From Methylovulum psychrotolerans (GTDB taxonomy: Bacteria; Pseudomonadota; Gammaproteobacteria; Methylococcales; Methylomonadaceae), in contig NZ_PGFZ01000004.1 in NCBI RefSeq assembly GCF_002923755.1, positions 330,340 through 372,026 of the forward strand: 41,687 nt of DNA, given 5' to 3'. A program made the translations under genes and the position numbers. How positions within the stretch are numbered: the first letter of the stretch is position 1; each line of letters begins with the position of its first letter. Shown here piece after piece: positions 7,606-23,039 of the stretch. The notes beneath the pieces were generated by a model that worked only from the letters and a program-made list of their open reading frames with translations, made no database searches and was not told the origin of the DNA.

Positions 7606-8601
7606 ATGAAAGCCATAGTTATGACAGCAGTTGGTGACAGCGGCGTGTTGGCCTTGCAAGAGATTGCCGAGCCGCAAATAAGCCACGCTACCGATATTAA
7701 AGTACGTCTATATGCTGCCGGGGTTAACCCGGTCGATACCAAAATCCGCCGGAACGGCCTGTTATACCCTAACGCCCTGTTGCCCGCCGTATTGGGTTTT
7801 GATGGGGCGGGCGAGGTGGTGGCGGTCGGTCCGAATGCCGACCAGTTTAAGGTGGGCGATAAAGTGTGGTTTTGTCATGGCGGTTTAGGGCGGGAGCAGG
7901 GCAATTACGCCGAATATACCGTACTTGACCAGCGTTGGGCTTGCCGGATGCCAGCGGACTTAAGTTATGTCGAGGCCGCCGCTGCCCCCTTGGTGCTGAT
8001 CACGGCGTTTGGGGCTTTGTTTGCGCGGGGTGGCTTGCAAGCCGGGCAAACGGTGTTGGTGCAAGCGGGGGCAGGCGGTGTCGGCCATGTAGCCGTGCAG
8101 TTAGCCAAGCTTGCTGGGGCGCGGGTCATTACGACGGTCAGTTCCGCTGAAAAAGCCGAATTTGTCAAATCTCTGGGTGCGGATGAAGCCATTATCTATA
8201 GCCAGACCGATGTCGCCGATGCCGTCAGCCAGTTGACCTCTCAGCAGGGTGCGGATTTGGTGTTCGATACCATTGGCGGCGATACGTTTAAGGCCAGTAT
8301 TCCACTAACGGCTTATTATGGTCGCCTAGTCACTTTACTGGAGCCTAAAGCCGTTGATTTGGGCGAAGCGCGGGTGCGCAATTTATTGTTGGGTTTTGAG
8401 CTGATGTTAACGCCTATGCTGCGTGATTTGCCCGCCGCTCGCGACCGCTATGTTGCGATACTTAAACAATGTGCGAAGTTTATTGATGCAGGGAAATTAA
8501 GTATCCATGTCAGCCACGTTTTGCCATTAGCGCAAGCCAGCACCGCGCATGATTTGCTTGAGGCAGGACACACCACTGGTAAGGTGGTGTTGTCTATTTA
8601 A
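7606..8601 (+). CDS. Zinc-free MDR oxidoreductase (quinone reductase / zeta-crystallin type)
   Basis: A 331-residue medium-chain dehydrogenase/reductase. The N-terminal GroES-like domain shows 'AAGVNPVDTKIR' and 'PAVLGFDGAGEVVAVG'. The Rossmann fold has AGAGGVGHVAVQLAK, the NADPH-binding glycine motif, at about residues 149-163. The catalytic-zinc ligands of alcohol dehydrogenases and the structural-zinc cysteine cluster are absent, which places it with NADPH:quinone oxidoreductase-like enzymes acting on quinones or enones. AGGA sits eight bases before the ATG. It is cytoplasmic and probably monocistronic; the next gene starts 145 bases downstream. Confidence 0.85.
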   Translation: MKAIVMTAVGDSGVLALQEIAEPQISHATDIKVRLYAAGVNPVDTKIRRNGLLYPNALLPAVLGFDGAGEVVAVGPNADQFKVGDKVWFCHGGLGREQGNYAEYTVLDQRWACRMPADLSYVEAAAAPLVLITAFGALFARGGLQAGQTVLVQAGAGGVGHVAVQLAKLAGARVITTVSSAEKAEFVKSLGADEAIIYSQTDVADAVSQLTSQQGADLVFDTIGGDTFKASIPLTAYYGRLVTLLEPKAVDLGEARVRNLLLGFELMLTPMLRDLPAARDRYVAILKQCAKFIDAGKLSIHVSHVLPLAQASTAHDLLEAGHTTGKVVLSI

Positions 8602-8746
8602 ACTTCATTTTTCGATTTCCGCGTATCACAGCATTTTTTTATACGGTGGTAGGGAGAAAAATGTGCGCAGTTTGCCAGCGTTGAGCCTTTCTGTCCATAT
8701 CACCAAAAAATGCGATAGACAGGCTTTCAATTATAAGAGGATAAGC

Positions 8747-11700
8747 ATGGATTCGATTGATATATTTCCGTGGAATGACAATTTTAAGACTGGGTTGCCT
8801 AACATTGACGAACAGCATAAGAAGTTAGTCCAGTTAATTAATAGGCTTGCCAGTCATGTGGCTTTCCAGTCCGATATTCCTGCATTGAATGCTATTTTTG
8901 ATGAGTTGGCAAACTATGCCGTTTATCACTTTGACACAGAAGAAGCCATTTGGCACAGATATTTTCCTGAAGATGCTTTAGAGCTTGGTCACAAAGCGAC
9001 CCACAGGCACTTTATAGAAACGATTTGCCAGCTAAAGGAAGATAAAGCTAACAAATCGCCAGAAAAAGTCATCAATGAGGTTTTGGTATTCCTGAGCCGC
9101 TGGTTGGTCGCGCATATTTTGGAGAATGACCGTTACCTTGCCATGATTGTTTTGGCTATGCAGGCAGGCATACCATTAGAAGTCGCCAAGCAGCAGGCTG
9201 ATGGACAAATGCAAGGGACAACGGGGACGCTAATTGACATCATTCAGTCCATTTATGAAGGTCTCTCAACCAACACCTTGGCTTTGATGAGGGAGTTAAT
9301 GGAGCGTCGGCGTGATCAGGAGTCATTGAGAAAACTTTCGCTGGCCGTAGAGCAAAGCCCCAGCTCTATTGTCATCACCGACCTTAATGCTAACATTGAA
9401 TTTGTCAATGAAGCTTTTGTTAAAGCAACCGGGTATAGCCGCACCGAAGCACAAGGAAATAATCCAAATTTGCTGCAATCGGGTAAAACCCCGCCACAGA
9501 CTTATCTGAATATGTGGGATACATTGCTGCGCGGGGAAGTTTGGCAAGGCGAATTTATCAATAAGCGTAAGGATGGCAGCGAATATATCGAATTGGCGTT
9601 GGTTTCCCCAGTTTGCCAAGCAGATGGGGTGGTCACACATTACCTGGCTATCAAAGAAGACATTACCGAGCGCAAGCGGCTTGAACGCCGTTTAGCGGAA
9701 CAATTGGCGTTTACCCAGGCAGTGATTGACGCGGAAGTCGATGGCGTCGCCGTCTGCCATAGCATCGCTGAACCGCCTTATGTCCACTTTACGGTGTGGA
9801 ATCCCAGTATGGAAAGCATCACCGGGTTTTCCCTGGAAGAAATTAACCGCTTAGGCTGGTATCAGACGGTGTATATCGATCCCGATACGCAACAGCGGGC
9901 GAAGCAGCGTATGGAGCGTATGCGCCAAGGTGAACACATTCAAGGCGAAGAATGGACAATTACCCATAAAGATGGCGGCCATCGGACAGTGCAAATCTTT
10001 ACTACCCTGTGTGCCCAGGATGCTGACGGGGCGCATGTGCTAGCCGTTATGCACGACATTACTAAGCGCAAACGGGCTGAGGTAGCCCTGCGTGAATCGA
10101 ACCAGTTACTCCATTCACTGCTTAATTCCATTGCCGAGGGGGCTTATGGGGTTGATACCCACGGCAACTGCACGTTCGTCAACCGGGCATTTTTACGGAT
10201 TTTGGGATATGAAAATACCGATGAAATTATCGGCAAACATATCCATGAACTTATCCACCATTCTTATCCTGATGGCCGTCCTTACCCTGCCAGTGAATGC
10301 CGGATGTACGCCGCTTATAAGCGTAACCAAGAAATACATGTTGAACAAGAAGTTTTTTGGCGCAAGGACGGCACTGCCGTACCCGTCGAATACTGGTCGC
10401 AACCGATTATTACCGACGGCGTGATGATCGGCGCAATTGCTACGTTTGTTGACATTAGCGAACGGAAAAAAGCCGAAGAAGCCAGCCAGTTAGCCGCACA
10501 ATATGCCCGCAGCCTGATTGAGGCCAGCCTTGACCCTTTAGTGACTATCAATGGCGAGGGTAAAATCACCGATGTCAACACGGCCACGGAGCAGGTGACG
10601 GGTGTGCCCCGTGATAGCCTGATCGGCAGTGATTTTGCCGACTATTTCACCGACCCTGAACAGGCCCGCCGGGGCTATCAGCAGGTTTTTTCACAGGGGG
10701 CCGTGACCGATTACCCGTTGGCCATCCGCCATACCTCCGGCAAAGTCACCGATGTGCTTTATAATGCCACGGTATACCATGACGGTAACGGTAAGGTGTT
10801 GGGGGTGTTTGCCGCCGCCCGTGACATTACCGAACGTAAGCAGATTGAAGCTAAGCTTATCAGCAGTGAATACCGCCTGCGTACCATTATTGACAATGAG
10901 CCGGAATGCATCAAAATTATTGATGCACGAGGTTTGATCGTCATGATGAATCCGGCGGGGCTGGCTATGTTGGAGGCCGAGCACTTGGATCAGGTGCTTG
11001 GCAAAACGGTGCTGAGTGCCATTGCCCCCAAATACCGTAAAGCTTATACCGAACTGCACGAGCAGGTCTTGGCAGGTCATACCGCTCAAATGCAATATGA
11101 AATCACGGGCTTTAAAGGCGGCTGCCGATGGTTGGAGACCCATGCCGTGCCCATGAAAGAGAGCGATGGCTCTGTGGTGCATTTAGCGGTTACCCGTGAC
11201 ATTACCGAACGTAAGCGGGCTGAACAACAACTGCGAATCGCCGCCACTGTCTTTGAGTCACAAGAAGGCATGATGGTGACGGATGCCGATCAAATCATTC
11301 TTAGGGTTAATAAGGCCTTTACTGACATTACCGGCTACACTGCCGAAGAAGCGGTCGGCAAAACCCCCCGTATCCTCCAAGCGGATAGGCAAGACCATAG
11401 TGTATATACCAGCATGTGGGCAAAAATTAATGCCACGGGGGCTTGGGAAGGTGAAATTTGGAGCCGCCGCAAAAATGGCGAAACTTATCCTGAATACCTT
11501 ACCATCACGGCAGTTAAAGACCAAGACGGTATGGTCAGCCATTATGTGGGTACGTTGACTGACATCACCTTAAAAAAAGCCGCCGCCGAGGAAATTGAAA
11601 AGTTAGCTTTTTATGATCCGCTCACTGGCTTGCCTAATCGGCGGCTGTTGTATGACCGGATAAAATCGGCCTTGGCCGCCAGCCACCGTAATAGCCGCAA

Positions 11701-12139
11701 AGGGGCGTTACTCTTTATTGATTTGGACAATTTCAAAACGCTGAATGATACTCTGGGTCATGACATGGGGGATTTGCTGTTGCAACAAGTGGCTGGGCGT
11801 TTGAGCGCTTGTGTCCGTGAAAATGATACGGTGGCACGGCTAGGGGGGGATGAATTCGTGGTGATGCTGCAAGATTTGGACGACGAGGGTGATGCGGCAG
11901 TACAACAAACGGCCGCTGTCGGCCATAAGATACTCCTTACGCTTAACCAGCCTTTCCGGTTGACAGAGTATGATTACAGCAGTACGCCCAGTATTGGCGC
12001 GACGGTTTTCAACGCTTATGGGCAAAGCGTAGAAGAATTGTTAAAAAATGCCGACATCGCCATGTATAACGCCAAAACCTCAGGCCGCAATACGTTGCGT
12101 TTCTTTGACCCGCAAATGCAGGCGATAGTTCACAATTAA
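8747..12139 (+). CDS. Hemerythrin-PAS(6)-GGDEF diguanylate cyclase (putative O2 sensor)
   Basis: A 1130-residue soluble protein. I placed the start at 8747 (AAGAGG eight bases upstream) because the longer frame from 8549 overlaps the preceding gene and adds non-conserved sequence. Residues about 5-130 are a bacteriohemerythrin domain with all di-iron ligands visible: H in DEQHKK, H and E in YHFDTEE, H in HKATHRHF, and H and D in WLVAHILEND. Six PAS domains follow (about 192-315, 319-448, 448-580, 588-700, 702-825, 828-948). The C-terminal GGDEF domain (about 950-1123) has an intact RLGGDEF active site and a RxxD inhibitory site (REND). So it should make c-di-GMP under control of O2 or redox. 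The protein ends right after GGDEF, at 'RFFDPQMQ', where many relatives continue into EAL. It leads the plus-strand signalling block. Confidence 0.92.
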   Translation: MDSIDIFPWNDNFKTGLPNIDEQHKKLVQLINRLASHVAFQSDIPALNAIFDELANYAVYHFDTEEAIWHRYFPEDALELGHKATHRHFIETICQLKEDKANKSPEKVINEVLVFLSRWLVAHILENDRYLAMIVLAMQAGIPLEVAKQQADGQMQGTTGTLIDIIQSIYEGLSTNTLALMRELMERRRDQESLRKLSLAVEQSPSSIVITDLNANIEFVNEAFVKATGYSRTEAQGNNPNLLQSGKTPPQTYLNMWDTLLRGEVWQGEFINKRKDGSEYIELALVSPVCQADGVVTHYLAIKEDITERKRLERRLAEQLAFTQAVIDAEVDGVAVCHSIAEPPYVHFTVWNPSMESITGFSLEEINRLGWYQTVYIDPDTQQRAKQRMERMRQGEHIQGEEWTITHKDGGHRTVQIFTTLCAQDADGAHVLAVMHDITKRKRAEVALRESNQLLHSLLNSIAEGAYGVDTHGNCTFVNRAFLRILGYENTDEIIGKHIHELIHHSYPDGRPYPASECRMYAAYKRNQEIHVEQEVFWRKDGTAVPVEYWSQPIITDGVMIGAIATFVDISERKKAEEASQLAAQYARSLIEASLDPLVTINGEGKITDVNTATEQVTGVPRDSLIGSDFADYFTDPEQARRGYQQVFSQGAVTDYPLAIRHTSGKVTDVLYNATVYHDGNGKVLGVFAAARDITERKQIEAKLISSEYRLRTIIDNEPECIKIIDARGLIVMMNPAGLAMLEAEHLDQVLGKTVLSAIAPKYRKAYTELHEQVLAGHTAQMQYEITGFKGGCRWLETHAVPMKESDGSVVHLAVTRDITERKRAEQQLRIAATVFESQEGMMVTDADQIILRVNKAFTDITGYTAEEAVGKTPRILQADRQDHSVYTSMWAKINATGAWEGEIWSRRKNGETYPEYLTITAVKDQDGMVSHYVGTLTDITLKKAAAEEIEKLAFYDPLTGLPNRRLLYDRIKSALAASHRNSRKGALLFIDLDNFKTLNDTLGHDMGDLLLQQVAGRLSACVRENDTVARLGGDEFVVMLQDLDDEGDAAVQQTAAVGHKILLTLNQPFRLTEYDYSSTPSIGATVFNAYGQSVEELLKNADIAMYNAKTSGRNTLRFFDPQMQAIVHN

Positions 12140-12267
12140 TGCCTTTATGGTAAAGTAACTGGGGATACGGCTTTCGGCCCCACAGATTATCTGGCAGACC
12201 TGTCATAAGCCGGAGCAAAGCGGCGCGAGGCTAACTTGGTAGGTTTTGAAACATTAGGGGGAGTCTT

Positions 12268-12351
12268 TTGAGCGTCAAAGGGTATCCCGTGATGCTATTT
12301 TCAGCACTTCATGGAATGCGGCATCTCTTTATGAAATGGTATATGAAATGA
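12268..12351 (+). CDS. Possible 27-codon leader ORF coupled to the CHASE sensor gene
   Basis: A TTG-initiated frame preceded by a purine-rich GGGGGAG runs 27 codons. Its TGA overlaps the in-frame ATG at 12348 of the next gene (ATGA). The downstream gene has no visible ribosome site of its own, so translational coupling would explain its expression. No homology is recognised and the start is non-canonical, so this is tentative. Confidence 0.25.
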   Translation: MSVKGYPVMLFSALHGMRHLFMKWYMK

Positions 12352-14828
12352 CTATTTTTTCCAGGAATTACTTTTCTGGCTTAACTGGTTCTTGGTTGCT
12401 TCCCGCATTTGTGTCAGGGGCAGTGCTGTTGGTTGGTTTGGGCATTAGCGGCGGATTATGCTGGCAAGCAAAACAACAAGATGCCGACAGTCTGCGGGCG
12501 GCATTCGAGTCGGCAGCGGATATGGCCATAGATAATATCAATGACCGTTTTAATGTTTATGCCGTCGTTATGCGGGGTGTCCGAGGTTTTTTCAATGGCA
12601 GCAAAGCCATTTCATTTAACGAATTCCACACTTATGTGCAAGCATTGCATTTGTATGAAAAATCGGGGGTACAAGCCATAGGTTTAGTCATGCTGGTGAG
12701 CAATGCCGAAAAAGCCCGGCATATCCAAGCCATGCGTCAGCAGAAGTCGGCGGATTACCAAATCAAACCGGACGGACAGCGCGATTACTACGCGCCAATC
12801 ATTTATATAGAACCGTTTGCCGGCGATAATCTTAAAGCGTTCGGGTTTGATCCGTTAACCGTACCCGCCGCCCTTAGCGCTATGGAGCAAGCCCGTGATG
12901 CCGATGATATCCGTATCACCTCCCGAATTGCTTTGATACAAGATGCCGATAAGCCTTATGTCTATTCTTTCGTCATGTATCTGCCGCTGTATAAAAAAGG
13001 CGCGGAATTTGCCACGTTGGCGCAACGGCGGGCGGCTATTATCGGCTGGGTGGATGTGCCATTCCGCATCAACGATCTGATAGCGGGGATCCGCCGCCAA
13101 TTACCTACAGACATTAGTCTGGAAATTTATGATGGCATTACCCTATCCGAACAAACGCGCCTGTTCCAATCGGGTATAAACCTTGGGGAGAAAGGCCGGG
13201 TAGCGGATGGTTTGCAGACTAGCCGTTCGATAGTGGTGGGTGGACGGCAATGGGTCGTGCGGATGGTGGCGGCTCCGGCTTTTGAAAATCGAGCCATATA
13301 CCGCTATCGGCCTGAATTAGTGTTTGCTACCAGCGTCACTTTGACGTTGCTGCTGACTTTACTGACTTGGCAATTGGCCAGGAGCCGACAAACTGCCGAA
13401 ATCCATTTCCGGCAGTTGTTCAGGCAAGCAGGTGAGGGCATACTTATCTTAAATGATGACCACCTGATTTTAGATGCCAACAACACGGCTTTGACTCTGT
13501 TGGGCTATAGCCGCGCCGAGCTTTTATCGTTGCATTTACCGGCTATTTTGGCGACGGTTGAAAACGTCAGCCTACCCGCATTAGCTAGTATGGCGGAGAG
13601 CGGTGCGGTGTCCTTAGAGCAATGGCGGTATAGGTGTAAAAACGGTACGGAATTTCCGTCCGAGGTCAGCGTCCGCCGCTTAGACGGGCAGCGGTACTTC
13701 GCCATTTTGCGTGACCGTACCGAACGCCAGAAAGCCGAGCAGCGTATCCTAAGGTTGACGCAACTTTATCAGGCCTTAAGCGAAACTAATCAAGCCATCG
13801 TGCGTATGGATAACGCCAGAGAATTGTTTCCGCTGGTCTGCCGCTGTGCGGTGGCTTTTGGTGGCATGAAAATGGCTTGGATTGGCCAGCTTAACGAAGC
13901 GGATTTAGTGATCGTACCTGTCGCTGCCTATGGTGTCGGCCAAGAATATCTTGACGGTCTGGTCATTTCCGCATCTGCCGATGTTGCGGAAGGCTTAGGG
14001 CCTACAGGGACAGCATTGCGGGAAAATCGTCCGGTGATTATTAATGATTATCTTAATAACCCTATGACCATCCATTGGCATGAACGTGCCAAGCACTTTG
14101 CCTGGGGGGCGGCGGGGACTTTTCCTATCCGGCGCAATGGTAAGCCTTTTGCTGTGCTCACGGTTTATCATAATCAAATTAACGCTTTTGACACGGAAGC
14201 CATAGAGCTTCTTAAGGAAATGGCCTGCGATATTACTTTTGCTTTGGATAATTTTGACCGGGATGTCCAGCGTCAGGCCGCCCAGAAAGCCTTGGCCGAG
14301 AATGAGGCAAAATTGTCGCTGATTATGGAAAATGTCAGCGCCTATATTTATTTAAAGGATAAGGAAGGGCGGTATCTATATGTGAACCGCCCGTGCCTTG
14401 AGTTGTGGGGGTTAACGATGGCGGACGTGATCGGTGTTACGGATGAGGTATTGTTTGATCACCAACTGGCAGCAAAAATACGCGCTGATGACCGGCATTT
14501 GTTTATGACGGGCGAGATTCTCCGGGGCGAAGAAACTGGAACGGCAACCAAAACAGGTAAGACAGCGACTTATTGGGCCGTTAAAATGCCTTTACGTCAT
14601 ACTGATGGCAGTATCTATGCTTTGTGCGGCATTTCGACCGACATCACCGAACGTAAGCAAATAGAAGCGCAACTCCAGCAGCAGCTCAAGGAGTTACGCC
14701 AATGGTTTGACATCACCTTGGGCCGCGAAGAGCGGGTGATGCAACTGAAAACGGAAATCAATAAATTGCTGGGGCGTTTAGGTGAGCCGCCCCGCTACGC
14801 CGACCCCGCCTCCGACTTGGAAGCTTAA
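12336..14828 (+). CDS. Membrane CHASE-PAS-GAF-PAS sensor without an output domain
   Basis: An 830-residue protein. TM1 lies at about 15-40, a periplasmic CHASE domain at about 60-260 ('FFNGSKAISFNEFHTYV' and 'DYYAPIIYIEP' are typical), and TM2 at about 327-347. Then come PAS1 (355-475), a GAF domain (about 475-643) and PAS2 (652-778, ending in DITERKQIE). The last 50 residues are a helical tail with GREERVMQLK, INKLLGRLG and PPRY. There is no histidine kinase, GGDEF, EAL or methyl-accepting region, so signal must pass by protein contact, perhaps to the REC-GGDEF-EAL protein encoded 44 bases downstream. ATGs at 12336 and 12348 are both possible starts and neither has a clear ribosome site. A second protein in the window (34009-36183) ends in the same tail motif. 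Confidence 0.85.
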   Translation: MVYEMTIFSRNYFSGLTGSWLLPAFVSGAVLLVGLGISGGLCWQAKQQDADSLRAAFESAADMAIDNINDRFNVYAVVMRGVRGFFNGSKAISFNEFHTYVQALHLYEKSGVQAIGLVMLVSNAEKARHIQAMRQQKSADYQIKPDGQRDYYAPIIYIEPFAGDNLKAFGFDPLTVPAALSAMEQARDADDIRITSRIALIQDADKPYVYSFVMYLPLYKKGAEFATLAQRRAAIIGWVDVPFRINDLIAGIRRQLPTDISLEIYDGITLSEQTRLFQSGINLGEKGRVADGLQTSRSIVVGGRQWVVRMVAAPAFENRAIYRYRPELVFATSVTLTLLLTLLTWQLARSRQTAEIHFRQLFRQAGEGILILNDDHLILDANNTALTLLGYSRAELLSLHLPAILATVENVSLPALASMAESGAVSLEQWRYRCKNGTEFPSEVSVRRLDGQRYFAILRDRTERQKAEQRILRLTQLYQALSETNQAIVRMDNARELFPLVCRCAVAFGGMKMAWIGQLNEADLVIVPVAAYGVGQEYLDGLVISASADVAEGLGPTGTALRENRPVIINDYLNNPMTIHWHERAKHFAWGAAGTFPIRRNGKPFAVLTVYHNQINAFDTEAIELLKEMACDITFALDNFDRDVQRQAAQKALAENEAKLSLIMENVSAYIYLKDKEGRYLYVNRPCLELWGLTMADVIGVTDEVLFDHQLAAKIRADDRHLFMTGEILRGEETGTATKTGKTATYWAVKMPLRHTDGSIYALCGISTDITERKQIEAQLQQQLKELRQWFDITLGREERVMQLKTEINKLLGRLGEPPRYADPASDLEA

Positions 14829-14872
14829 CATTATGTCCGATACCGTTATGGGCTTTATCTGTCTGATCCACA

Positions 14873-17785
14873 ATGCCTATTGCCAGTAGTGCCCCGCTAC
14901 GCGTTTTGCTTGTCGAAGACTCGGTTAGCGATGCCGAACTGGTGGTTCGGCAACTGCATAAAGGCGGGTTTGAGGTCGGCTACGAGCGTGTCGAAAACGC
15001 CGGTCAACTGCATACCGCTTTGGTAAAGCAAAAGTGGGATATTGTCCTGTCAGACTTTAATTTGCCGGCAATAGACGCGGCTGTTGCCATGGCCATTGTC
15101 CGTGAATATGACCAGAATATGCCTTTTATTGTGGTCTCAGACAATATCGGTGACGATGTTGCCGTGACGTTGATGCGGGCCGGTGCCAGTGATTATTTAC
15201 TGAAAAATAACCTTCAGCGGCTGGCTGCGGCAGTGCAACGTGAAGTGGACAATGCCCGTGTCCGTAATGCCCGCCATGACAGTGATGTCAGGTTTCAGCA
15301 ATTGTTTAATCTGACTCCTGTACCGCTTGCCTTTATTAATCAAGAAGGGGACGTTTTCGATTTGAATGCCCGTTTCCAGCAGACGTTCGGCTATTGCCCT
15401 AGCGATTTGCCCACCATAAAAGAATGGTGGCAACTCGCCTATCCAGAGCCTAATTATCGGCGGCAGGTGGTGGATACTTGGAATGCCGCCGTGCAGGCGG
15501 CTACAGAACAGCATACCGACATTCCCGCCCACGAATATTGTGTGAGCTGTAAAAGTGGTGATTTACGCATTATGCTGATTTCCGGCATTATTATTGGCGA
15601 TAGCTTGCTGGTGACGTTTTTTGACATCACCGAGAGGAAAAATACTGAAACTGAGCTTAAACGCCATATCAAAGAGGCGGAGCGTGTCCGAGCCGCCTTA
15701 TTAGGGGTGCTTGAAGACCAGCGTGAGGCACAGGCCGCGTTGCGTGAAAATGAAGCCCGCTACCGCTTATTGTTTGCCGAGAATCCTGTGCCGATGTGGG
15801 TTTATGACATCAATACCCTCGCTTTCATTGCCGTTAACGATGCGGCAGTTGCGCATTATGGCTATAGTTGCGAAGAATTTTATACGATGGGCATAGCCGA
15901 CCTCAGCCCGCCGGACGGACAAGAAACCGCCCAGCAGAAATCCGTCCAAGCCGATTGCTATGGCTTATCCGGTATTTGGCGGCATCGCCGGAAAGACGGC
16001 AGTTTACTCTGGGCCGAGATGACCGGGCATAATCTGGCGTTTGAAGGCCGGACGGCGAGGATTGTCTTAGCCCAAGATGTGACCCAACGCCTGGAGGCAG
16101 AACATCAGCTACGCCTTAGTGCGCAAGTTTTTGAATCCAGCCGGGATGGTATCCTCATCACCGATGCTGATAATAAGATCGTTTCGGTTAATAAGGCCTA
16201 CACGGATATTACCGGTTATACGCTAGCAGAGGTGCTGGGCAAACCGCCCAATATTGTCTCGTCTGGAAAACAGGACAAAAAGTTTTATGCGGCGATGTGG
16301 CGCAGTATTATCGCTGACGGGTGCTGGCAAGGCGAGGTCGTCAACCGCCGTAAGAACGGCGAACTGTATCCGCAATGGCTTTCTGTCAGTGTCATCAGGA
16401 ACCAAAATGGCGAGATTTTCCAGTACATTGGCATTTTAAGTGACCTTTCCGAACACCATTCCGCCCAAGAGCGCATCCAATTTCTCAGTAATTTCGACGT
16501 GTTGACCCAACTGCCTAACCGGGCGCGATTGCAAGACCGTGCCCAATTGGCTCTGGCCAGCGCCAAGCGGATTAATGCTTCTGTCGCCTTGATGTATCTG
16601 GATCTTGACCGCTTTAAGACGATTAATGAATCGCTAGGCCCCAGCATCGGCGACCAATTGCTTAAGGACTTGTCGGTGCGCTTAGATACCCAATTGGATT
16701 CTGATTATACGCTCTGCCGTCAGGGTGGCGATGAATTTATCCTCTTGCTGCCCAACACCGATGCCGAAGATGCCGCCCATATTGCCAGAAAAATACTCGA
16801 CATCGTTGCCCAGGAGTTTGTTGTTGGTGGGCATAGGTTGACCTTGACGGTCAGCATCGGCATTGCCCAATTCCCCGAAGACGGCGACACTTTTGAGCAA
16901 TTGGCGCAATCTGCGGATGCCGCGCTATTTCGTGCCAAGCAAAATGGCCGTAACAATTTTCAATTTTTTACCCGGCAAATGCACGAGCAGGCCCAAGAGA
17001 CGCTCCAGATCGAGAACGAGTTACGCTGCGCCTTGGAGCAGAACGAATTGCTGCTATATTACCAACCCCAAGTGGATGCAAAAACGGGTAAAATAGTCGG
17101 GGCAGAAGTGCTGATACGTTGGCAGCATCCCCAGAAGGGTATGGTGCCGCCGGGGTGCTTTATCCCCATTGCGGAGGAAAGCGGCCTGATTATTGACATT
17201 GGCGATTGGGTGTTGCAGACCGCTATCCAGCAAACCGCCGCTTGGCAAGCTGCCGGGCTTGGCATTGTTCCGATCGCGGTCAACCTTTCGGTTGTGCAAT
17301 TCCGCCAAGATACGCTGTACCAGAAAGTGGTTCAGGCGTTGCGTTTATCCAAATTAGACCCTACCCTGCTTGAATTGGAACTGACCGAGGGTATAGCGAT
17401 GGAAAACACCGAACGTACCATCGGCGTACTGAACCAGCTCCATGCTTTGGGGGTCGCGCTGTCTATTGATGATTTTGGCACCGGCTATTCTTCCTTAAGT
17501 TACCTTAAGCGTTTCAAGATCAACAAGCTAAAAATCGACCAGTCTTTTGTCCGTGACCTCGGACGCAACCCTGAAGATGCCGCGATTGTCACCGCTATCA
17601 TTGGCATGGCAAAAAGCCTAGGCTTTAAAACCATTGCCGAAGGGGTGGAAACACAAGAACAACTGGATTTTTTACGCGGGCAACAGTGTGATGAAATCCA
17701 AGGCTATTTTTTTAGCAAGCCCATCCCCGCCGAACAGTTTGCAGCGTTACTCCGGGGCAACAGAGTTCTGGGCATTGCTAACTGA
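14873..17785 (+). CDS. REC-PAS(3)-GGDEF-EAL response regulator (c-di-GMP turnover)
   Basis: A 970-residue cytoplasmic protein. The receiver domain (about 9-125) has E15/D16, phospho-acceptor D61 in VLSDFNLP and K111. PAS domains lie at about 138-256, 295-408 and 413-528. GGDEF (about 538-700) keeps RQGGDEF but has no RxxD inhibitory site (DSDY at that place). The EAL domain (about 708-961) reads EVL in the signature, a common variant, and retains ELTEG, DDFGTGYSS, the KLKIDQSFV lysine and AEGVET. Phosphodiesterase activity is therefore likely, with cyclase activity also possible. No cognate kinase lies next to it; the gene just upstream encodes an output-less CHASE-PAS sensor. No obvious ribosome site precedes the ATG, consistent with read-through translation from upstream. 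Confidence 0.92.
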   Translation: MPIASSAPLRVLLVEDSVSDAELVVRQLHKGGFEVGYERVENAGQLHTALVKQKWDIVLSDFNLPAIDAAVAMAIVREYDQNMPFIVVSDNIGDDVAVTLMRAGASDYLLKNNLQRLAAAVQREVDNARVRNARHDSDVRFQQLFNLTPVPLAFINQEGDVFDLNARFQQTFGYCPSDLPTIKEWWQLAYPEPNYRRQVVDTWNAAVQAATEQHTDIPAHEYCVSCKSGDLRIMLISGIIIGDSLLVTFFDITERKNTETELKRHIKEAERVRAALLGVLEDQREAQAALRENEARYRLLFAENPVPMWVYDINTLAFIAVNDAAVAHYGYSCEEFYTMGIADLSPPDGQETAQQKSVQADCYGLSGIWRHRRKDGSLLWAEMTGHNLAFEGRTARIVLAQDVTQRLEAEHQLRLSAQVFESSRDGILITDADNKIVSVNKAYTDITGYTLAEVLGKPPNIVSSGKQDKKFYAAMWRSIIADGCWQGEVVNRRKNGELYPQWLSVSVIRNQNGEIFQYIGILSDLSEHHSAQERIQFLSNFDVLTQLPNRARLQDRAQLALASAKRINASVALMYLDLDRFKTINESLGPSIGDQLLKDLSVRLDTQLDSDYTLCRQGGDEFILLLPNTDAEDAAHIARKILDIVAQEFVVGGHRLTLTVSIGIAQFPEDGDTFEQLAQSADAALFRAKQNGRNNFQFFTRQMHEQAQETLQIENELRCALEQNELLLYYQPQVDAKTGKIVGAEVLIRWQHPQKGMVPPGCFIPIAEESGLIIDIGDWVLQTAIQQTAAWQAAGLGIVPIAVNLSVVQFRQDTLYQKVVQALRLSKLDPTLLELELTEGIAMENTERTIGVLNQLHALGVALSIDDFGTGYSSLSYLKRFKINKLKIDQSFVRDLGRNPEDAAIVTAIIGMAKSLGFKTIAEGVETQEQLDFLRGQQCDEIQGYFFSKPIPAEQFAALLRGNRVLGIAN

Positions 17786-18125
17786 CTTTTTTCAAGTAGA
17801 AAGCAATTTACTATTTTAATTAAATAATCCGTTGCCAAGTGTTTTTCCTCGCTTTCCTCGTTGCGGTATGAAGATTATTTGCGTTTACCTTCTTTTAAAT
17901 TTGCGTAATAGCGCCTTGGTATGTTGACCGGGTTTAAGTAAATAAGCAGTAATTGTGTATAGGCTGTTGCTATATCAGCAGCCATACTTGAGAGTGGATT
18001 TTATTTTTCAATAAATTCATGAAGTTAATGTGTGGCACATAAATTGACTATTAACTTTCAAACAGTGGCATAACACTTATTTGTGGTGTGCCGTGGTTTC
18101 ATTTGAAGGTTTAATAGAGGTTTAT
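17786..18125. other. Intergenic region upstream of the sulfatase unit
   Basis: 340 A+T-rich bases without a credible ORF. It contains the sigma-54-like element at 18033-18048 and the TAGAGG ribosome site of the sulfatase. No strong terminator for the GGDEF-EAL gene was seen. Confidence 0.55.
18033..18048 (+). promoter_or_regulatory. Sigma-54-like promoter element
   Basis: TGGCAC-N5-TTGAC gives the GG-N10-G spacing of a -24/-12 promoter; the -12 GC is GA here, so the match is imperfect. It lies 78 bases upstream of the sulfatase ATG in a suitable orientation. The window encodes a sigma-54 activator at 37926-39035, but no link is shown. Confidence 0.35.
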
Positions 18126-19751
18126 ATGAAAATGGCTATCCGTCAACGGCTCCTGTCCGTCCTATTGTTATTTTTACCCCTGATTGCTTGGGCGGACAAC
18201 CGCCTTAATATTGTCGTGATTGTCGGGGATGATTGGGGCGGGCCTTATGCCAGCGCTTACACGGGCATTTACGGGCGGGCCTTACCTAGCGACACCGTCA
18301 AAACGCCTAATATTGACCGTATTGCGCGTAATGGCGTATTGTTTAAAAACGCCTATGTCAATGCCCCCTCCTGTACGCCTTCACGCAGTTCCATTTTTTC
18401 CGGCCGCTATTTTTTTAATACGGGCGGTGGGGCATTCTTATATGGGACTTGGGACCCGACCATTCCAAGTTTCCCGCTATTGCTGCATGATGCCGGCTAC
18501 CATATCGGCAAAACTTATAAGACTTGGGCGCCCGGCGTGCCAATAGATGCCCCGTTTGGTGGCGTAAAAACATATCAATACCAGCAGTCCGGCACCTCTG
18601 CTAACCGCTTTAGCAGCACTGTGACCGCTTTAATGGCTAAAGGTATGACTTTTGACCAAGCTAAACAAACGCTGTTGGATGAGGTTAACGGCAATTTTAG
18701 CGCCTTCATCAAAGCCCGCAAACCCGGCCAGCCGTTTTTATATTGGTTTGGCCCCACTAACACCCACCGTTCTTGGGTTAAAGGTTCAGGCAAAGCTTTA
18801 TGGGGCATAGACCCTGACAATCTGAAAAATAAATTACGCGCTTTTTTGCCGAATGTCCCGGAAATACGCGAGGACATGGCCGATTATTTGGGCGAAATAC
18901 AGGCGTTAGATGCTTATGTCGGTGTTTTGCTGAAAAAATTGGAAGATATTGGCGAATTGGACAAAACGTTGATTGTCGTCACTGGTGACAACGGCCCTGG
19001 CGGTTTTCCGCATGGCAAATGGAATTTATATGATTTTGGTGTTGCCACGCCTTTAGCCATTTGGTTGCCCAATAGCAAAGCGGGGCGGGTAGTTGACGAT
19101 TTTACGACCTTGATGGATTTGGCGCCGACCTTTCTTGACGTAGCAGGCTTGCCGACTCCAGCGGACATGAACGGTAAGAGCTTGTTGCCCGTGCTAACAT
19201 CGCCTAACAGCGGCCAAGTTGACCCCCAACGCAATTTTGTGATTACAGGTGAAGAACGCCATGTCGGTATGGCGACAGAACAAAGCTTGCCTTATCCGGC
19301 CCGTGCCTTACGCACCGCCAATTATCTGTATATCCGTAACTTTGCCCCTGAACGTTGGCCTATGGGATGTCCGCTTATTTCACCCGCACCCACGCCAACC
19401 CCATGGGTATTTGTGGATATGGATCCCAGTCCGACTAAAGACTGGATCATTAATAACCGTAACGTGCCGGCTGGCGCCCACTTTTATACTTGGGGATTTG
19501 CCAAACGGCCTATGGAAGAGTTGTTTGATCTGAGCAACGATCCCGGGCAAATCACCAATGTCGCCAATAAACCGGCTTATGCAACGGTGAAGGCGCAATT
19601 GGCCGGGCAACTGTTGGCCCGGTTAAAAAATGCCGGGGACCCACGGGTGGTAGGGGATGGCAAGACGTTTGACCAACCGCCTTTTACCAGCCTTGCAAGC
19701 GTTGCCTGCCATGATAGCTTGCCCTTAGGCTGGCTTGCTAATGGCCAGTAA
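18126..19751 (+). CDS. Exported type I sulfatase (heparan N-sulfatase-like)
   Basis: A 541-residue protein. I chose the ATG at 18126 because TAGAGG precedes it and it gives a clean signal peptide (MKMAIRQRLLSVLLLFLPLI, cleavage near AWA-DN). The formylglycine motif CTPSR is at C83-R87, so a formylglycine-generating enzyme is needed for activity; none is in the window. Metal ligands D35/D36 in VGDDWGGP and the later TGDNGPGGFPHGK block (about 287-300) are present. Phrases such as TPNIDRIARNGVLFKNAYV and DLAPTFLDVAG place it with N-sulfoglucosamine/heparan-type sulfatases, but the natural substrate is unknown. It should act in the periplasm on sulfated glycans or sulfate esters. The next gene starts 35 bases downstream on the same strand, so the two are likely an operon. 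Confidence 0.9.
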   Translation: MKMAIRQRLLSVLLLFLPLIAWADNRLNIVVIVGDDWGGPYASAYTGIYGRALPSDTVKTPNIDRIARNGVLFKNAYVNAPSCTPSRSSIFSGRYFFNTGGGAFLYGTWDPTIPSFPLLLHDAGYHIGKTYKTWAPGVPIDAPFGGVKTYQYQQSGTSANRFSSTVTALMAKGMTFDQAKQTLLDEVNGNFSAFIKARKPGQPFLYWFGPTNTHRSWVKGSGKALWGIDPDNLKNKLRAFLPNVPEIREDMADYLGEIQALDAYVGVLLKKLEDIGELDKTLIVVTGDNGPGGFPHGKWNLYDFGVATPLAIWLPNSKAGRVVDDFTTLMDLAPTFLDVAGLPTPADMNGKSLLPVLTSPNSGQVDPQRNFVITGEERHVGMATEQSLPYPARALRTANYLYIRNFAPERWPMGCPLISPAPTPTPWVFVDMDPSPTKDWIINNRNVPAGAHFYTWGFAKRPMEELFDLSNDPGQITNVANKPAYATVKAQLAGQLLARLKNAGDPRVVGDGKTFDQPPFTSLASVACHDSLPLGWLANGQ

Positions 19752-19786
19752 TTTTCTTTATCACCCCATCCATTTTGGAAAGGATT

Positions 19787-22351
19787 ATGCCCCTAGAAAA
19801 AATTTTACTTTGCGATGAATCACCCGCCGATTTGGCTTATGTGGCACAGGTTTTAGGGGGGGCCGACTGTCTCTTGTTAACCGCGTATACGGGTGAAGAA
19901 GCCATCCGTATTGCTAAAGCAGAGCAGCCGGACATCATTTTTATGGAGAGTGCCATGCCGGGTCTCGATGGTTATGCCAGTTACCGGAGCTTAGGCGAAG
20001 ATTTGGCGACCCGGCATATCCCGATTATTTTTATCAATTCTAAACAGCAAAAGGCTGCCCGCATTTATCAGGAGAGCTTAAGCGCTTCCCAGCGGCTGCG
20101 GCTGTTGGAGTGGCCGCAATACGAACCTGCCCAACAGCTCTTTCAGGACGCTTTTTTTGCGCCTTCCGGTTTGGCAGCATTAGCTGAACAGGCCAATAGC
20201 CCAGTGCTTGTTCTGGCTGCTTTGGAAGCGGCCTATTATTATTTCAGCAACCAGTATGGGCGCTTGTCCGACTTGCACTTAACAGCGCCCTCAGAACTGT
20301 GGATGCTGGCACAAACGGCTTCCATCGCCTTATTACAAGAACCGAAAAAAATTCATCCCACAGTCCTGCCGACTCTCTTATCGGGTATACCTTGTGATTT
20401 GCAACCTTTACTTGCTGCTTGCAAAGACCCACAATTAGGAAGTCGGTTGGTAAACGAGGCCTTTGATGGGGCGGTCAGCTTGCCCAGCCCCTTTTCACCA
20501 AACCGGGCTTATTGCCAAGAAAGTTATGAAGTCGCCCCAGACCTTAATTGCCTACGCTTTACTGATGGCAAACAGGTATTTTTTCTGGTGCAATTGCTAT
20601 CTACAGCCGACGCGCTGTATTTTCCGGTGGATAATGTCTTTTTGGTGCTTGCCCATATTAACGAGTCACATGTCAAACGTTTGCAAGAAAAATTGATGAA
20701 AGATTTCGCCAAGAATGTCGCTTATGCCACCTCAAGCAATACGTTTGCGGGTGTTATTGCCTCCCATAGCCGACCTTCGCATTTTTATTATGATGTCTGG
20801 CCGGCACTGTTTGAGTTAGCGAAGGAAGCGCCGGTATTAGAGAACTTGCCGACTATTATTATGCGTAAGGATCATGACTTTAATGATCCCAGCCTGTTGT
20901 TTTCCTACGATAAATATCAAGTGCTCGATTCAGCAGAAATCGGGCAGATTGCTTGCGGCGAAAATAAATGGTTTACCCATATCGGGCGGCATCAGCATTT
21001 GAGCAGCCGCTTTGCTTATGAGCTTGCCGACCATTATTTGCTCGATACCGTACTGCAAGCGCCTGATGACAAAGCCTTAGCGAAAACCGCCAGCCTTACC
21101 GGGTGTTACCCTATTGTTTGGCTGGGCGTAGAAGGCCAAAAGCGTTGCTGGCTGGAACAAGTGGAAGGCTATGCTTATATCCTTAACCAACTTAGCCTTA
21201 CTTACCCGAATTTAGGGGTAATTTTCGACGGCTGGACTATGCCGTTTACCCCCTCCGAGGCCTCGCTCAGCGAAGCCGAAAAAGACCATCAAGTCGTGCA
21301 GAATATCCTCAAACAATTGACGTTTGAGCCGCGTTATGTGTCGGTGGTCGGCGAAACCAGTAATACCAAGCTAGTAGTCGGGCATAAAGCCGACTTTTTC
21401 ATCAGTAATTTTGCCACCGGGTCTTTGCATATTTCCAGGTTGCTGGCGAAACCGGGGTTTGGCCATTTAAGCCGGACTTTCTCGGAAGTCGCGCTCCGCT
21501 ATGCCATGCATATCCACCCTAATCCCCATGTTTACCTGTTACCGCAAGGTTATATTAGCGATCTGGCCGACCATGCCGATATCCGTCATGATTATTTAAG
21601 CTATTCAATTGATAAAAAAAGCTTTTATCAATTTATTGCCGAACGTTTGCCAACGCTATTGGCGACTGGCCAACAGCCTGCCATCCGGTATTTTATCGAG
21701 CCTTCTTATAGTGTCACTTATGATTTACGGCTGCATGTCAAAATGGCGACGCAAGGCAATGTTTTCCCGGTCGGTGCAGGTGAAGATAAGGTGTTGGAAT
21801 TGCGCCAATATCCCGTGGACTATTTGCAACGGCAATTGATTTATGGGACTTTTCCGTTTGGCAGCGCCGAAAAGGCAGGGTTGCCGGGGGATTACCTGAT
21901 CTGGTTACGCGCCCCTTTGCCTAGGGTGTGTTATCACGCCAGAGAATTGACGTTAATGGCCGCGCACCAAGGCCAAACCTTAACCATCAGCGATGTTTTT
22001 AAAGTCGGCCATAAGGTGTTGGATAATTATTTTACCCGTATGCTATCTGGCGGCTTTGCCGTAGCATTTGGGCAATGTACCGAAGAGTTGTTAGCTATTG
22101 CTATCGGTAACCTACAAAACCACTTCATTTATATCGGCATTAATGAGAAGCCTACTGAATCTTATGATCTTTTATGTCAAGTGATGGACTGGGACAGGAC
22201 GCTATTCGCCACCCTGACTCCCATCCGCTACGAGCTAAACAGCAGTGATTTTTCCGATGAAGAACTGCATTTGGCAAAAACCATGAACAGCTTTGATTTA
22301 CGCCTGTACGAAGCGGCTTTAGAATGGTTTAACAATAAACTGGGGCATTAG
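19787..22351 (+). CDS. Degenerate receiver fused to a sulfotransferase-like C-terminal region
   Basis: An 854-residue cytoplasmic protein. The ATG at 19787 with GGAAAGG just before it is preferred over a TTG twelve bases upstream. Residues 4-120 look like a receiver domain (KILLCDESPAD, PDIIFMESAMPGLDGY), but the phospho-acceptor Asp is E54 and the usual Lys is missing. Residues about 125-620 are not recognised; YPIVWLGVEG and YPNLGVIFDGW blocks recall glycan-active proteins, weakly. Residues about 630-854 resemble sulfotransferases: GTFPFG, WLRAPLPRV, DNYFTRMLSGG, FIYIGINEKPTESYDLL and MNSFDLRLYE match their later blocks in order. The P-loop that normally binds PAPS (HIPKTAGTT-like) would fall at FIEPSYSVT, without its Lys and Gly. 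It may be a pseudoenzyme or a divergent enzyme. Its neighbour is an exported sulfatase. Confidence 0.7.
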   Translation: MPLEKILLCDESPADLAYVAQVLGGADCLLLTAYTGEEAIRIAKAEQPDIIFMESAMPGLDGYASYRSLGEDLATRHIPIIFINSKQQKAARIYQESLSASQRLRLLEWPQYEPAQQLFQDAFFAPSGLAALAEQANSPVLVLAALEAAYYYFSNQYGRLSDLHLTAPSELWMLAQTASIALLQEPKKIHPTVLPTLLSGIPCDLQPLLAACKDPQLGSRLVNEAFDGAVSLPSPFSPNRAYCQESYEVAPDLNCLRFTDGKQVFFLVQLLSTADALYFPVDNVFLVLAHINESHVKRLQEKLMKDFAKNVAYATSSNTFAGVIASHSRPSHFYYDVWPALFELAKEAPVLENLPTIIMRKDHDFNDPSLLFSYDKYQVLDSAEIGQIACGENKWFTHIGRHQHLSSRFAYELADHYLLDTVLQAPDDKALAKTASLTGCYPIVWLGVEGQKRCWLEQVEGYAYILNQLSLTYPNLGVIFDGWTMPFTPSEASLSEAEKDHQVVQNILKQLTFEPRYVSVVGETSNTKLVVGHKADFFISNFATGSLHISRLLAKPGFGHLSRTFSEVALRYAMHIHPNPHVYLLPQGYISDLADHADIRHDYLSYSIDKKSFYQFIAERLPTLLATGQQPAIRYFIEPSYSVTYDLRLHVKMATQGNVFPVGAGEDKVLELRQYPVDYLQRQLIYGTFPFGSAEKAGLPGDYLIWLRAPLPRVCYHARELTLMAAHQGQTLTISDVFKVGHKVLDNYFTRMLSGGFAVAFGQCTEELLAIAIGNLQNHFIYIGINEKPTESYDLLCQVMDWDRTLFATLTPIRYELNSSDFSDEELHLAKTMNSFDLRLYEAALEWFNNKLGH

Positions 22352-22362
22352 GTTGTTGGTTA

Positions 22363-22391
22363 CTTCTTGCGGGCAAGATGCCCGCAAGAAG
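22363..22391 (+). terminator. Terminator hairpin after the sulfatase unit
   Basis: A perfect 12-bp stem (CTTCTTGCGGGC and its complement) with a 5-base loop lies 11 bases past the stop at 22351. The T run (TATTTTT) comes after a few other bases, so termination may be shared with the next hairpin. Confidence 0.7.
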
Positions 22392-22433: not shown

Positions 22434-22448
22434 AACAAGTATACTTCA

Positions 22449-22592
22449 AACGGTCAAGTTTTCGATTTTAGGATTAACCGTTCGGCCTGAGATTCGAAGG
22501 CTGGACGGTTAATCCGCCCATGGTTCGACGACCAGCGGAAGTCCCTGTGGGACGGGCTCACCACGAACGGATTAACCGAAAACTTGATCGTT
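22449..22592. repeat. Dispersed palindromic repeat (REP/MITE-like), degenerate copy
   Basis: Outer arms AACGGTCAAGTTTTCG (22449-22464) and its near-complement (22577-22592, 15 of 16) enclose an inner inverted repeat GGATTAACCGT (22471-22481) / ACGGTTAATCC (22505-22515). GGATTAACCG occurs again at 22569-22578. The core resembles the 'CCGTTCG...TCGAAGG...GGTTCGAC...CACCACGAACGG' intergenic element scattered through many proteobacterial genomes (established from general knowledge, not searched here). About 20 extra bases interrupt the right half. It encodes no protein of its own but overlaps the last codons of the BLUF gene. Confidence 0.7.
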
Positions 22593-23039
22593 CAGAGAAT
22601 ATTCAATGCTTATCGGTTGCCGAAACTGTTCTAAAACAAATTCCACATAATCCTCGACTTCTTTTGCGACCTCCGCAGAGGTAGGTGTCGGTTGGTGAGC
22701 AAAAAATGCCGCAAAACCTTCAATGTCTTGTAGTCTCATCTCATTCGGCGATGCAAAGCCCATGGCCCACTGGCTAAATCTGCGCTCGCTAATCGGGGCG
22801 GTGTAGAGTTTAAGAATATGGGAATGCCTACTGTCTTTGCTGATGCGTTCGAACAGCGCTTCAATAGCCTGATAATCCCCTTCCAAAACTTGAATAAAGA
22901 AATAATCCCGATACAACAGCAACCCGGTGATGCCACAAGCACTGTTAAAGGTTCTCGCCTCGTGCAAAATGTCCAGCAAATCATCTTCTGACATGTCATT
23001 TTTGGTGCTGCTTATATAAACAAGGTTGGCTAATTCCAT
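22572..23039 (-). CDS. Stand-alone BLUF blue-light photoreceptor
   Basis: A 155-residue protein consisting of a BLUF domain plus a short helical C-terminus. Conserved flavin-pocket residues are present: Y8 in LVYISS, N32 in TFNSACGITG, Q50 in FFIQVLEGD and W91/M93 in FSQWAMGF. FAD binding and blue-light response are therefore expected. The start at 23039 follows a GGGA ribosome site and puts the domain at residue 1; longer in-frame starts (23069, 23132) add unrelated residues. There is no fused output domain, as in PixD/BlsA-type proteins, so it probably works by binding a partner. The final seven codons and the TAA stop come from the palindromic repeat at 22449-22592. It lies 147 bases downstream of ppc on the same strand; only a weak GGAAAA/TTTTCC hairpin separates them. 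Confidence 0.9.
   Translation of the reverse strand: MELANLVYISSTKNDMSEDDLLDILHEARTFNSACGITGLLLYRDYFFIQVLEGDYQAIEALFERISKDSRHSHILKLYTAPISERRFSQWAMGFASPNEMRLQDIEGFAAFFAHQPTPTSAEVAKEVEDYVEFVLEQFRQPISIEYSLNDQVFG

Follow-up and report, generated by a model that had tools for sequence, protein, structure and literature searches.

Identification of a sulfatase gene and a fusion gene at the locus

The window, i.e., the whole stretch of DNA analyzed here, comprises 41,687 nucleotides of the genome of Methylovulum psychrotolerans (G000:C34:330340-372026; this genome, designated as G000, is 5.19 Mb in 97 contigs). Its forward strand carries a sulfatase gene and, 35 bases after the sulfatase stop codon, a gene coding for an 854-residue protein that begins as a response-regulator receiver (PF00072, E 7.2e-11, residues 6–93). 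These features had been recognized in an initial annotation of the sequence and were confirmed. The receiver is the sole Pfam match on the fusion protein. It is followed by a helical linker, a GT-B glycosyltransferase-like domain, and a C-terminal domain with a sulfotransferase fold whose active site, judged from its sequence, looks dead (Table 1). In our view, the protein is probably not a sulfation switch but an enzyme of glycosyltransferase type, located in the cytoplasm, that carries a pseudo-sulfotransferase module. The domain order, folds, homology, motif losses, selection, and gene neighborhoods described below were computed, and every biochemical role is inferred.

Table 1. Features of the sulfatase gene, the fusion gene, and their flanks (window positions)
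Feature	Position	Strand	Basis
Exported S1-type sulfatase, 541 amino acids (aa), ATG to stop	18126..19751	+	PF00884 E 2.3e-40
Likely Sec signal peptide, sulfatase residues 1–23	18126..18194	+	judged by eye from translation
CTPSR formylglycine motif, sulfatase residues 83–87	18372..18386	+	translation
Terminator-like stem and T-rich tail at sulfatase gene end	19729..19749	+	terminator scan
GGAAAGGA, ribosome-binding site between the two genes, ahead of fusion ATG	19777..19784	+	sequence
Fusion of 854 aa, ATG to stop: receiver, linker, GT-B-like, pseudo-sulfotransferase	19787..22351	+	open reading frame (ORF), model, fold search
Degenerate receiver, residues 1–105	19787..20101	+	PF00072
GAG codon, Glu54 at phospho-acceptor position	19946..19948	+	sequence, alignment
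Helical linker, residues 111–227	20117..20467	+	predicted secondary structure
GT-B glycosyltransferase-like domain, residues 228–620	20468..21646	+	Foldseek
Sulfotransferase-fold domain, residues 630–854	21674..22348	+	Foldseek and reciprocal profile matches
PAPS-loop position, FIEPSYSVTYDLR where intact enzymes have FIHLPKTAGTTVR	21692..21730	+	alignment
IYGTFPFG, Thr in place of GHF catalytic His	21839..21862	+	alignment
WLRAPLPRVCYH, 3'-phosphate site, Ser lost and Arg kept	21902..21937	+	alignment
Perfect 13-bp hairpin (inverted repeat I4) past fusion stop, possible transcript end	22363..22391	+	inverted-repeat search

Sulfotransferase fold of the C-terminal domain

The AlphaFold2 model of the whole fusion protein, built from 13 sequences, had a predicted local distance difference test score (pLDDT) of 78.6 and a predicted template modeling (TM) score of 0.65, with the receiver as its least confident part. 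In a Foldseek search with this model, the top match was heparan sulfate 2-O-sulfotransferase (HS2ST) 4ndz (E 1.4e-4, probability 1.00; TM-score of 4ndz_A normalized by target, 0.58), followed at E 1e-3 and worse by UDP-N-acetylglucosamine (UDP-GlcNAc) 2-epimerases, heptosyltransferase WaaC, and other GT-B proteins, together with some unrelated low-probability rows. Residues 630–854 fall within the sulfotransferase fold in this search, and the model predicts a strand (633–637), a loop, and a helix (645–654) in the strand-loop-helix arrangement that binds 3'-phosphoadenosine-5'-phosphosulfate (PAPS), as expected for the central sheet of the fold.

The initial annotation had also pointed to sequence blocks typical of carbohydrate sulfotransferases. 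They are present in the order described (IYGTFPFG, 685–692; WLRAPLPRVCYH, 706–717; LDNYFTRMLSGG, 745–756; FDLRLYE, 836–842), and they are not a chance resemblance, because profiles match in both directions: the fusion-family profile detected sulfotransferases encoded by two further genomes (E 3.4e-32 and 1.7e-28 per genome), and the reverse search, with a profile built from these two proteins, matched the window domain (E 1.1e-20 per genome). Intact relatives of the C-terminal domain are thus found elsewhere in Gammaproteobacteria. The G423 and G331 sulfotransferases are 245-aa proteins with the motifs PKTAGTT, GHF, and RDPVER(V/I)VS, and both PF06990 and PF03567 match above the cut-off.

Apparent loss of the sulfotransferase site in a domain under purifying selection

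According to passages of PMC11625862, the sulfotransferase family is defined by a PAPS-loop Lys or Arg, a helix Ser, and a sheet, with His or Glu as the base. We audited these motifs in 12 C-terminal domains of the family and a fragment from G014 (n = 13), aligned to L061 and L062; a partly masked G002 fragment was left out of the counts. The comparison set consisted of 26 other sulfotransferase loci with open frames of 221–523 aa (28 profile hit rows minus two family rows from the window's own genome). Comparison rows that were blank at a column were set aside, and 25 of the 26 were usable at the Lys column.

The PAPS-loop Lys was present in none of the 13 family sequences, whereas all 25 usable comparison sequences had it, and the 3'-phosphate helix Ser was likewise found in 0/13 versus 26/26. 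The catalytic His was retained by the G014 member alone (1/13; Thr in the window protein), in contrast to 23/26 of the comparison set, and the 3'-phosphate Arg by 6/13 versus 26/26. The loop glycine was absent from all 13, none of which had a Lys or Arg inside the loop except for a loop-ending Arg that is common to intact enzymes too. The GHF motif aligns to GHV of HS2ST, and we take the His of this aligned GH to be His142. The H142A variant of HS2ST is reported, in the part of PMC6094399 cited here, to have less than 1% activity while retaining PAPS and heparin binding. As far as sequence can tell, a Glu elsewhere might conceivably act as the base instead of His.

The G014 member has FIELPFTASPSLR at the loop and GHL at the catalytic position, and keeps both the His and the 3'-phosphate Arg. 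It looks intermediate by sequence, which supports the loop alignment. Its gene lies in two pieces that share 34 identical residues and are probably one gene.

A domain that has lost its cofactor motifs might be a decaying relic without function, but we find this scarcely credible. Four pairs gave ratios of nonsynonymous to synonymous substitution rates (dN/dS) of 0.045, 0.072, 0.168, and 0.195 for the C-terminal domain, which is therefore kept under purifying selection rather than decaying. It is at full length in all 10 members of the family alignment (A1) that have complete genes. Outside the motifs, nine residues are kept in 13/13 (D124, N125, R129, S132, G139, C141, G161, S169, and Y219 in L061 numbering). 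When 24 positions were inspected in the 12-domain alignment, F8, R20, P87, and R90 were also invariant (12/12), G64 and F66 were kept in 10/12, and H10, P12, T14, G16, and T17 were mostly or wholly lost.

The same selection is compatible with a domain that still acts as a transferase, having rearranged its catalytic residues or using another donor, in which case the protein would be a bifunctional glycosyl- and second-group transferase. The strand-loop-helix kept in the model and the His and Arg of the G014 member are in line with this idea, and according to passages of PMC11625862, enzymes of bacteria, algae, and fungi may lack the consensus motifs, and Arg replaces the Lys in mycobacterial Stf0. 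However, no such substitute was seen within the loop apart from the shared end Arg, and the losses extend to the loop glycine, the Ser, and, in 12 of the 13, the His. A retained transferase activity is thus rather improbable. The sulfotransferase-like C-terminus of the initial annotation is upheld as to fold, for which 4ndz ranked first, and not supported as to activity.

GT-B-like domain and distribution of the family

The initial annotation had left the middle 500 residues unrecognized. They match no Pfam family, and model and Foldseek divide them into the helical linker and a GT-B-like fold. The GT-B part modeled alone had a pLDDT of 70.1, below that of the same part in the whole-protein model, yet gave a clearer fold search, with 42 PDB matches at E <= 0.001. 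They include non-hydrolysing UDP-GlcNAc 2-epimerases, a GT9 protein, heptosyltransferase II, trehalose-phosphate synthases, glycogen phosphorylase, and others, all of which we take to have the GT-B fold. Foldseek accordingly predicts the two Rossmann-like halves of this fold in residues 228–620. Across 13 family members, Pfam recognized the receiver in two and otherwise gave isolated one-member matches at E 0.014 or worse, the nearest approach to a glycosyltransferase being one weak Glyco_trans_4_3 match at 0.067. The four PHROGs matches of the fusion protein all lie in residues 4–101, and its NCBIfam rows (25 of 40 rows) fall in the receiver.

A scan of named genomes yielded nine family loci, seven in Methylovulum and two in uncultured Methylococcaceae. 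Methylovulum miyakonense has two tandem receiver-less copies (L032:7397-12116), each 45% identical to the window protein. The fusion-family profile matched five of 369 gammaproteobacterial genomes: the own genome, G423 and G331 in the C-terminal part only, and G307 and G029 in the GT-B part only. GT-B-type relatives without the C-terminal part were found on Enterobacter and Escherichia coli plasmids, where they are annotated as "hypothetical protein" and lie in capsule-type clusters near an inositol-monophosphatase-family gene and a NeuB-like gene; the Enterobacter record also has an annotated acylneuraminate cytidylyltransferase gene. These E. coli and Enterobacter proteins (L066:9281-11104 and L065:9407-11197) are 29% and 26% identical to the middle domain and may represent an undescribed transferase family. 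The E. coli version is found over at least 80% of its length in 3 of 5,426 E. coli genomes. A plasmid search with the whole fusion returned 772 records; among the best 20 of the 772, the 18 below the top two match the receiver region only. Phage origin was also considered and rejected: residues 112–854 had no phage match at E <= 0.01, and none of the 11 stretches matched in a viral-contig scan encodes a relative.

Degenerate receiver of the window protein

Phospho-accepting receivers have an acceptor Asp, an acidic pair, a Thr or Ser, and a Lys. The window receiver has Asp10/Glu11 and Ser85 but Glu54 at the acceptor position, and it lacks the conserved Lys; hence, phospho-switching is unlikely in the window species. 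The closest relative in its own genome is a 120-aa CheY/PilH-like protein (G000:C67), 44% identical over residues 1–97, which has Asp at the acceptor position and whose gene is followed by a CheW-like gene (gene names assigned by eye). The receiver of G015 keeps the acceptor Asp and lacks the conserved Lys, making the matter of phospho-switching less clear there than in the window.

Among the 11 A1 members with a visible N-terminus, only the window protein and that of G015 have the receiver. The G013 contig starts near residue 95, in sequence that resembles the end of the G015 receiver, so that the sulfatase side and most of the receiver lie off the contig. In L035:7754-10507 and L036:8650-11307, and also in L042, L065, and L066, a common N-terminal stretch of about 130 residues occupies the place of the receiver; it has a GWI/GWV motif (by eye) and no Pfam match.

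The sulfatase and its pairing with the fusion gene

The window sulfatase has the features of a type I (S1) enzyme, namely the CxPSR formylglycine site and the PF00884 domain, and it also carries GDDWGG and TGDNG. The nearest solved sequences are an S1_8A sulfatase and N-sulfoglucosamine sulfohydrolase. It is an ordinary enzyme, exported as the initial annotation had proposed, and would act in another compartment than the fusion protein, for which no signal peptide was seen by eye. The formylglycine-generating enzyme (FGE) has the pattern GGS-aromatic-x-C-x4-C. Four PF03781 proteins were found in G000, and none has this cysteine pattern in the stretch checked. A scan of G000 for the anaerobic sulfatase-maturating enzyme gave nothing over the cut-off (best score 82 of 349 bits). 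FGE-independent sulfatase maturation exists. An Stf0 sulfotransferase gene of G000 stands 63 bases away from the gene of one FGE-sulfatase-domain protein that lacks these FGE cysteines (L095:5193-6986, G000:C1).

One other species, G015 (L034), has the sulfatase/fusion pair, and its sulfatase is 88% identical. As a family-wide rule, the pairing was tried and rejected: when the sulfatase was compared by blastp with ORFs of at least 80 aa at 19 homologue loci, several of them on short contigs, it matched at L034 only. The pairing described in the initial annotation is therefore real in a second species and not general; the receiver-less homologues seen are never beside sulfatases, and the one other receiver-bearing member, that of G015, is.

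The initial annotation had envisaged a module that adds and removes sulfate under signaling control, i.e., an active sulfotransferase switched by receiver phosphorylation would add sulfate to a surface glycan from which the adjoining sulfatase removes it. A sulfotransferase fold, a receiver, and an adjoining sulfatase are indeed combined in the window and G015. However, the PAPS Lys, the 3'-phosphate Ser, and the catalytic His are all replaced in the window protein, its receiver has exchanged the acceptor Asp for Glu and lost the conserved Lys, one partner is exported and the other apparently is not, and outside the window and G015 neither receiver nor sulfatase was found where flanks and N-termini are visible. 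We therefore regard this module as very improbable.

Another explanation is that the adjacency has no functional meaning, the two genes being unrelated and having been neighbors since the ancestor of a few Methylovulum species. The restriction of the pair to two species, the lack of a sulfatase beside the receiver-less homologues seen, and the different compartments of its products are consistent with this, as is the occurrence of three other full-length sulfatase orthologues, in G007, G010, and G000 itself (a second copy, 71%), on other contigs than family genes; G007 has no family gene at all. The terminator-like site that ends the sulfatase gene points the same way, though such sites are no commoner in the window than in shuffled sequence. 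Against it, order and strand of the pair are kept in G015 at a synonymous divergence (dS) of 1.2 for the sulfatase, whereas the G015 gene that adjoins the sulfatase corresponds to a G000 orthologue (81%) some 205 kb off on the same contig. The G013 gene and a G015 piece on a second contig are each followed by a nifS-like gene, the G000 match of which (99% for the G015 protein) lies on another contig, although the origin of this second contig is uncertain. The pair has thus probably stayed together amid changed surroundings, which favors a functional unit, in two species only; meaningless adjacency nevertheless remains a serious possibility, somewhat short of probable.

The uncertainty about G015 arises because its family gene lies in two contigs whose ends disagree over an overlap of about 50 residues, so that the second contig, 93% identical to that of G013, may be another copy or a faulty contig end. 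The start of the gene piece at L033:2999-4417 (G015:C299) differs from the other G015 piece and shows 78% DNA identity over 507 bases to a different M. miyakonense copy (L032); either copies have recombined, or the end of the contig is faulty.

Glycan-related genes near other family members

Three receiver-less homologues (L031, L035, and L036) have genes for an HMGL-like aldolase and a cytidylyltransferase no more than 5 kb away, and so do L042 and L043, which are without the C-terminal part. In G010, an Stf0 gene abuts the family gene (1/1), and the first 4 bases of the Stf0 gene overlap the family gene's stop; Stf0 genes also abut the family gene on both G014 contigs (2/2). A census of 10 genomes found 10 Stf0 genes, three of which adjoin a family gene, and four genomes without any; the other seven genes (two each in G000, G013, and G015 and one in G019) lie on other contigs or far away. 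Since glycan genes cluster anyway, the proximity of Stf0 and of genes for cytidine monophosphate (CMP)-sugars is a lead that falls short of proof. Part of the family may plausibly be connected with sulfated glycans by way of a different, intact enzyme.

Transcription signals and surroundings in the window

The sulfatase and fusion genes are possibly co-transcribed. If real, the terminator-like stem at the end of the sulfatase gene argues against read-through. Neither terminator-like sites (6 versus 7.4 in shuffles) nor promoter-like sites (8 versus 7.8) are in excess. Additional in-frame TTG codons lie upstream of the ATG starts, at 18081 for the sulfatase and 19775 for the fusion gene. The hairpin past the fusion stop is not among the sites of the terminator scan. 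Farther 3' of the fusion gene, a nested palindromic element occupies window positions 22440-22601; its core GGATTAACCGTTCGNCCTGAG has 13 copies in G000 at <=1 mismatch versus 0 for a control pattern, and the element is therefore an interspersed repeat. Three large signaling genes (hemerythrin-PAS-GGDEF, CHASE-PAS-GAF, and receiver-PAS-GGDEF-EAL) are located just upstream (window 8549-17785), and a BLUF protein is encoded downstream on the opposite strand.

Proposed function of the fusion protein

In the reading that we favor, a glycosyltransferase-type enzyme with a pseudo-sulfotransferase module, the GT-B-like domain would most likely transfer a sugar, perhaps CMP-activated, in the building of a surface glycan. 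The C-terminal sulfotransferase would have been stripped of its PAPS site and, except in one member, of its catalytic base while remaining under purifying selection. Its most likely role is a non-catalytic one, in which it would keep hold of the glycan acceptor or of a partner that might be a separate, active sulfotransferase. The PilH-like receiver would be a recent addition at the N-terminus in the window lineage; it is degenerate in the window protein and probably serves as a phosphorylation-independent interaction module. A more specific scheme, which we offer tentatively and would not expect to hold in full, is that the sulfotransferase fold acts as a non-catalytic glycan reader that positions a growing or sulfated chain for the GT-B domain and a separate Stf0, with the phospho-independent receiver linking the assembly to a signaling or pilus-type partner in one lineage.

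Several points weigh against the favored reading. The 13 sequences, which include the near-duplicates L030 and L033, are related by descent, and the motif losses therefore amount to few events. The comparison loci are biased towards motif retention because they were found with a motif-containing profile, which two of them helped to build. Most hidden Markov model alignments end before the PAPS loop, the placement of which rests on MAFFT, on the Phe and Arg to either side of it, and on the modeled strand-loop-helix, and the model alignments are shallow (13 and 9 rows). The G014 member (L041), with its His and Arg, could by its sequence have weak or altered activity, and dS reached 3.5–3.7 in the two pairs with the lowest dN/dS (0.045 and 0.072). 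As for the GT-B-like domain, none of the 13 members matches a Pfam glycosyltransferase family, and the low TM-scores of its search (0.13–0.46) leave its assignment at the level of GT-B as a whole. Of about 13 full-length family genes, just 3 have CMP-sugar genes nearby and 2 have Stf0, the remaining loci having been assessed by eye, and no glycan genes were seen near the window locus.

If the favored reading is right, the intact enzymes of other genera, the G014 member with its His, and the stripped members form a natural series in which one can watch a sulfotransferase become a binding module. Fold-based annotation would label these proteins as sulfotransferases, which serves as a warning. 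The analysis also draws attention to a family of glycosyltransferase-like proteins that no Pfam model covers and that extends to capsule-type clusters on enterobacterial plasmids.

Comparison with known systems

The C-terminal domain shares its fold with PF06990 (Gal-3-O) and PF03567 (Sulfotransfer_2) enzymes and with HS2ST, and homology runs along the window domain via the gammaproteobacterial relatives. Unlike these enzymes, it is without the PAPS-loop Lys, the 3'-phosphate Ser, and the catalytic His and is fused to a GT-B-like domain. A single sentence of PMC9539457, with reference to Ribeiro et al. 2019, lists pseudosulfotransferases among the classes of pseudoenzyme, and pseudoenzymes without activity can recognize carbohydrate epitopes, as stated in part of PMC12274613. 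By analogy, the latter fits the idea of a binding module and is no test of it. Searches of open-licence PMC papers listed neither a bacterial or GT-B-fused pseudosulfotransferase nor a protein in which a sulfotransferase fold is joined to a receiver or a GT-B glycosyltransferase. Pseudoenzymes and receiver-glycosyltransferase fusions are already known.

Residues 228–620 have the fold of GT-B glycosyltransferases and UDP-GlcNAc 2-epimerases (e.g., GT9 heptosyltransferases), but they differ from the known GT-Bs in having no Pfam family and in their identity of 9–14% in the matches listed. The nearest relatives of this domain outside the order are the unnamed proteins in capsule-type clusters. 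The receiver resembles PilH/CheY single-domain receivers, as its identity to the CheY-like protein of its own genome indicates, and is distinguished from them by the Glu acceptor, the lost Lys, and the fusion to enzyme domains. Signaling control of sulfated-polysaccharide synthesis is known in cyanobacteria: the synechan (Xss) system combines signaling proteins with glycosyltransferases and sulfotransferases for a sulfated polysaccharide, and the passages of PMC13125312 cited here describe no receiver-sulfotransferase fusion. An example of a receiver-glycosyltransferase fusion is archaeal MTH_548, described in part of PMC5847659, which joins a receiver (REC) to a BcsA-like glycosyltransferase. 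Its transferase is cellulose-synthase-like, whereas the window protein couples a degenerate receiver to a GT-B-like domain and a sulfotransferase fold.

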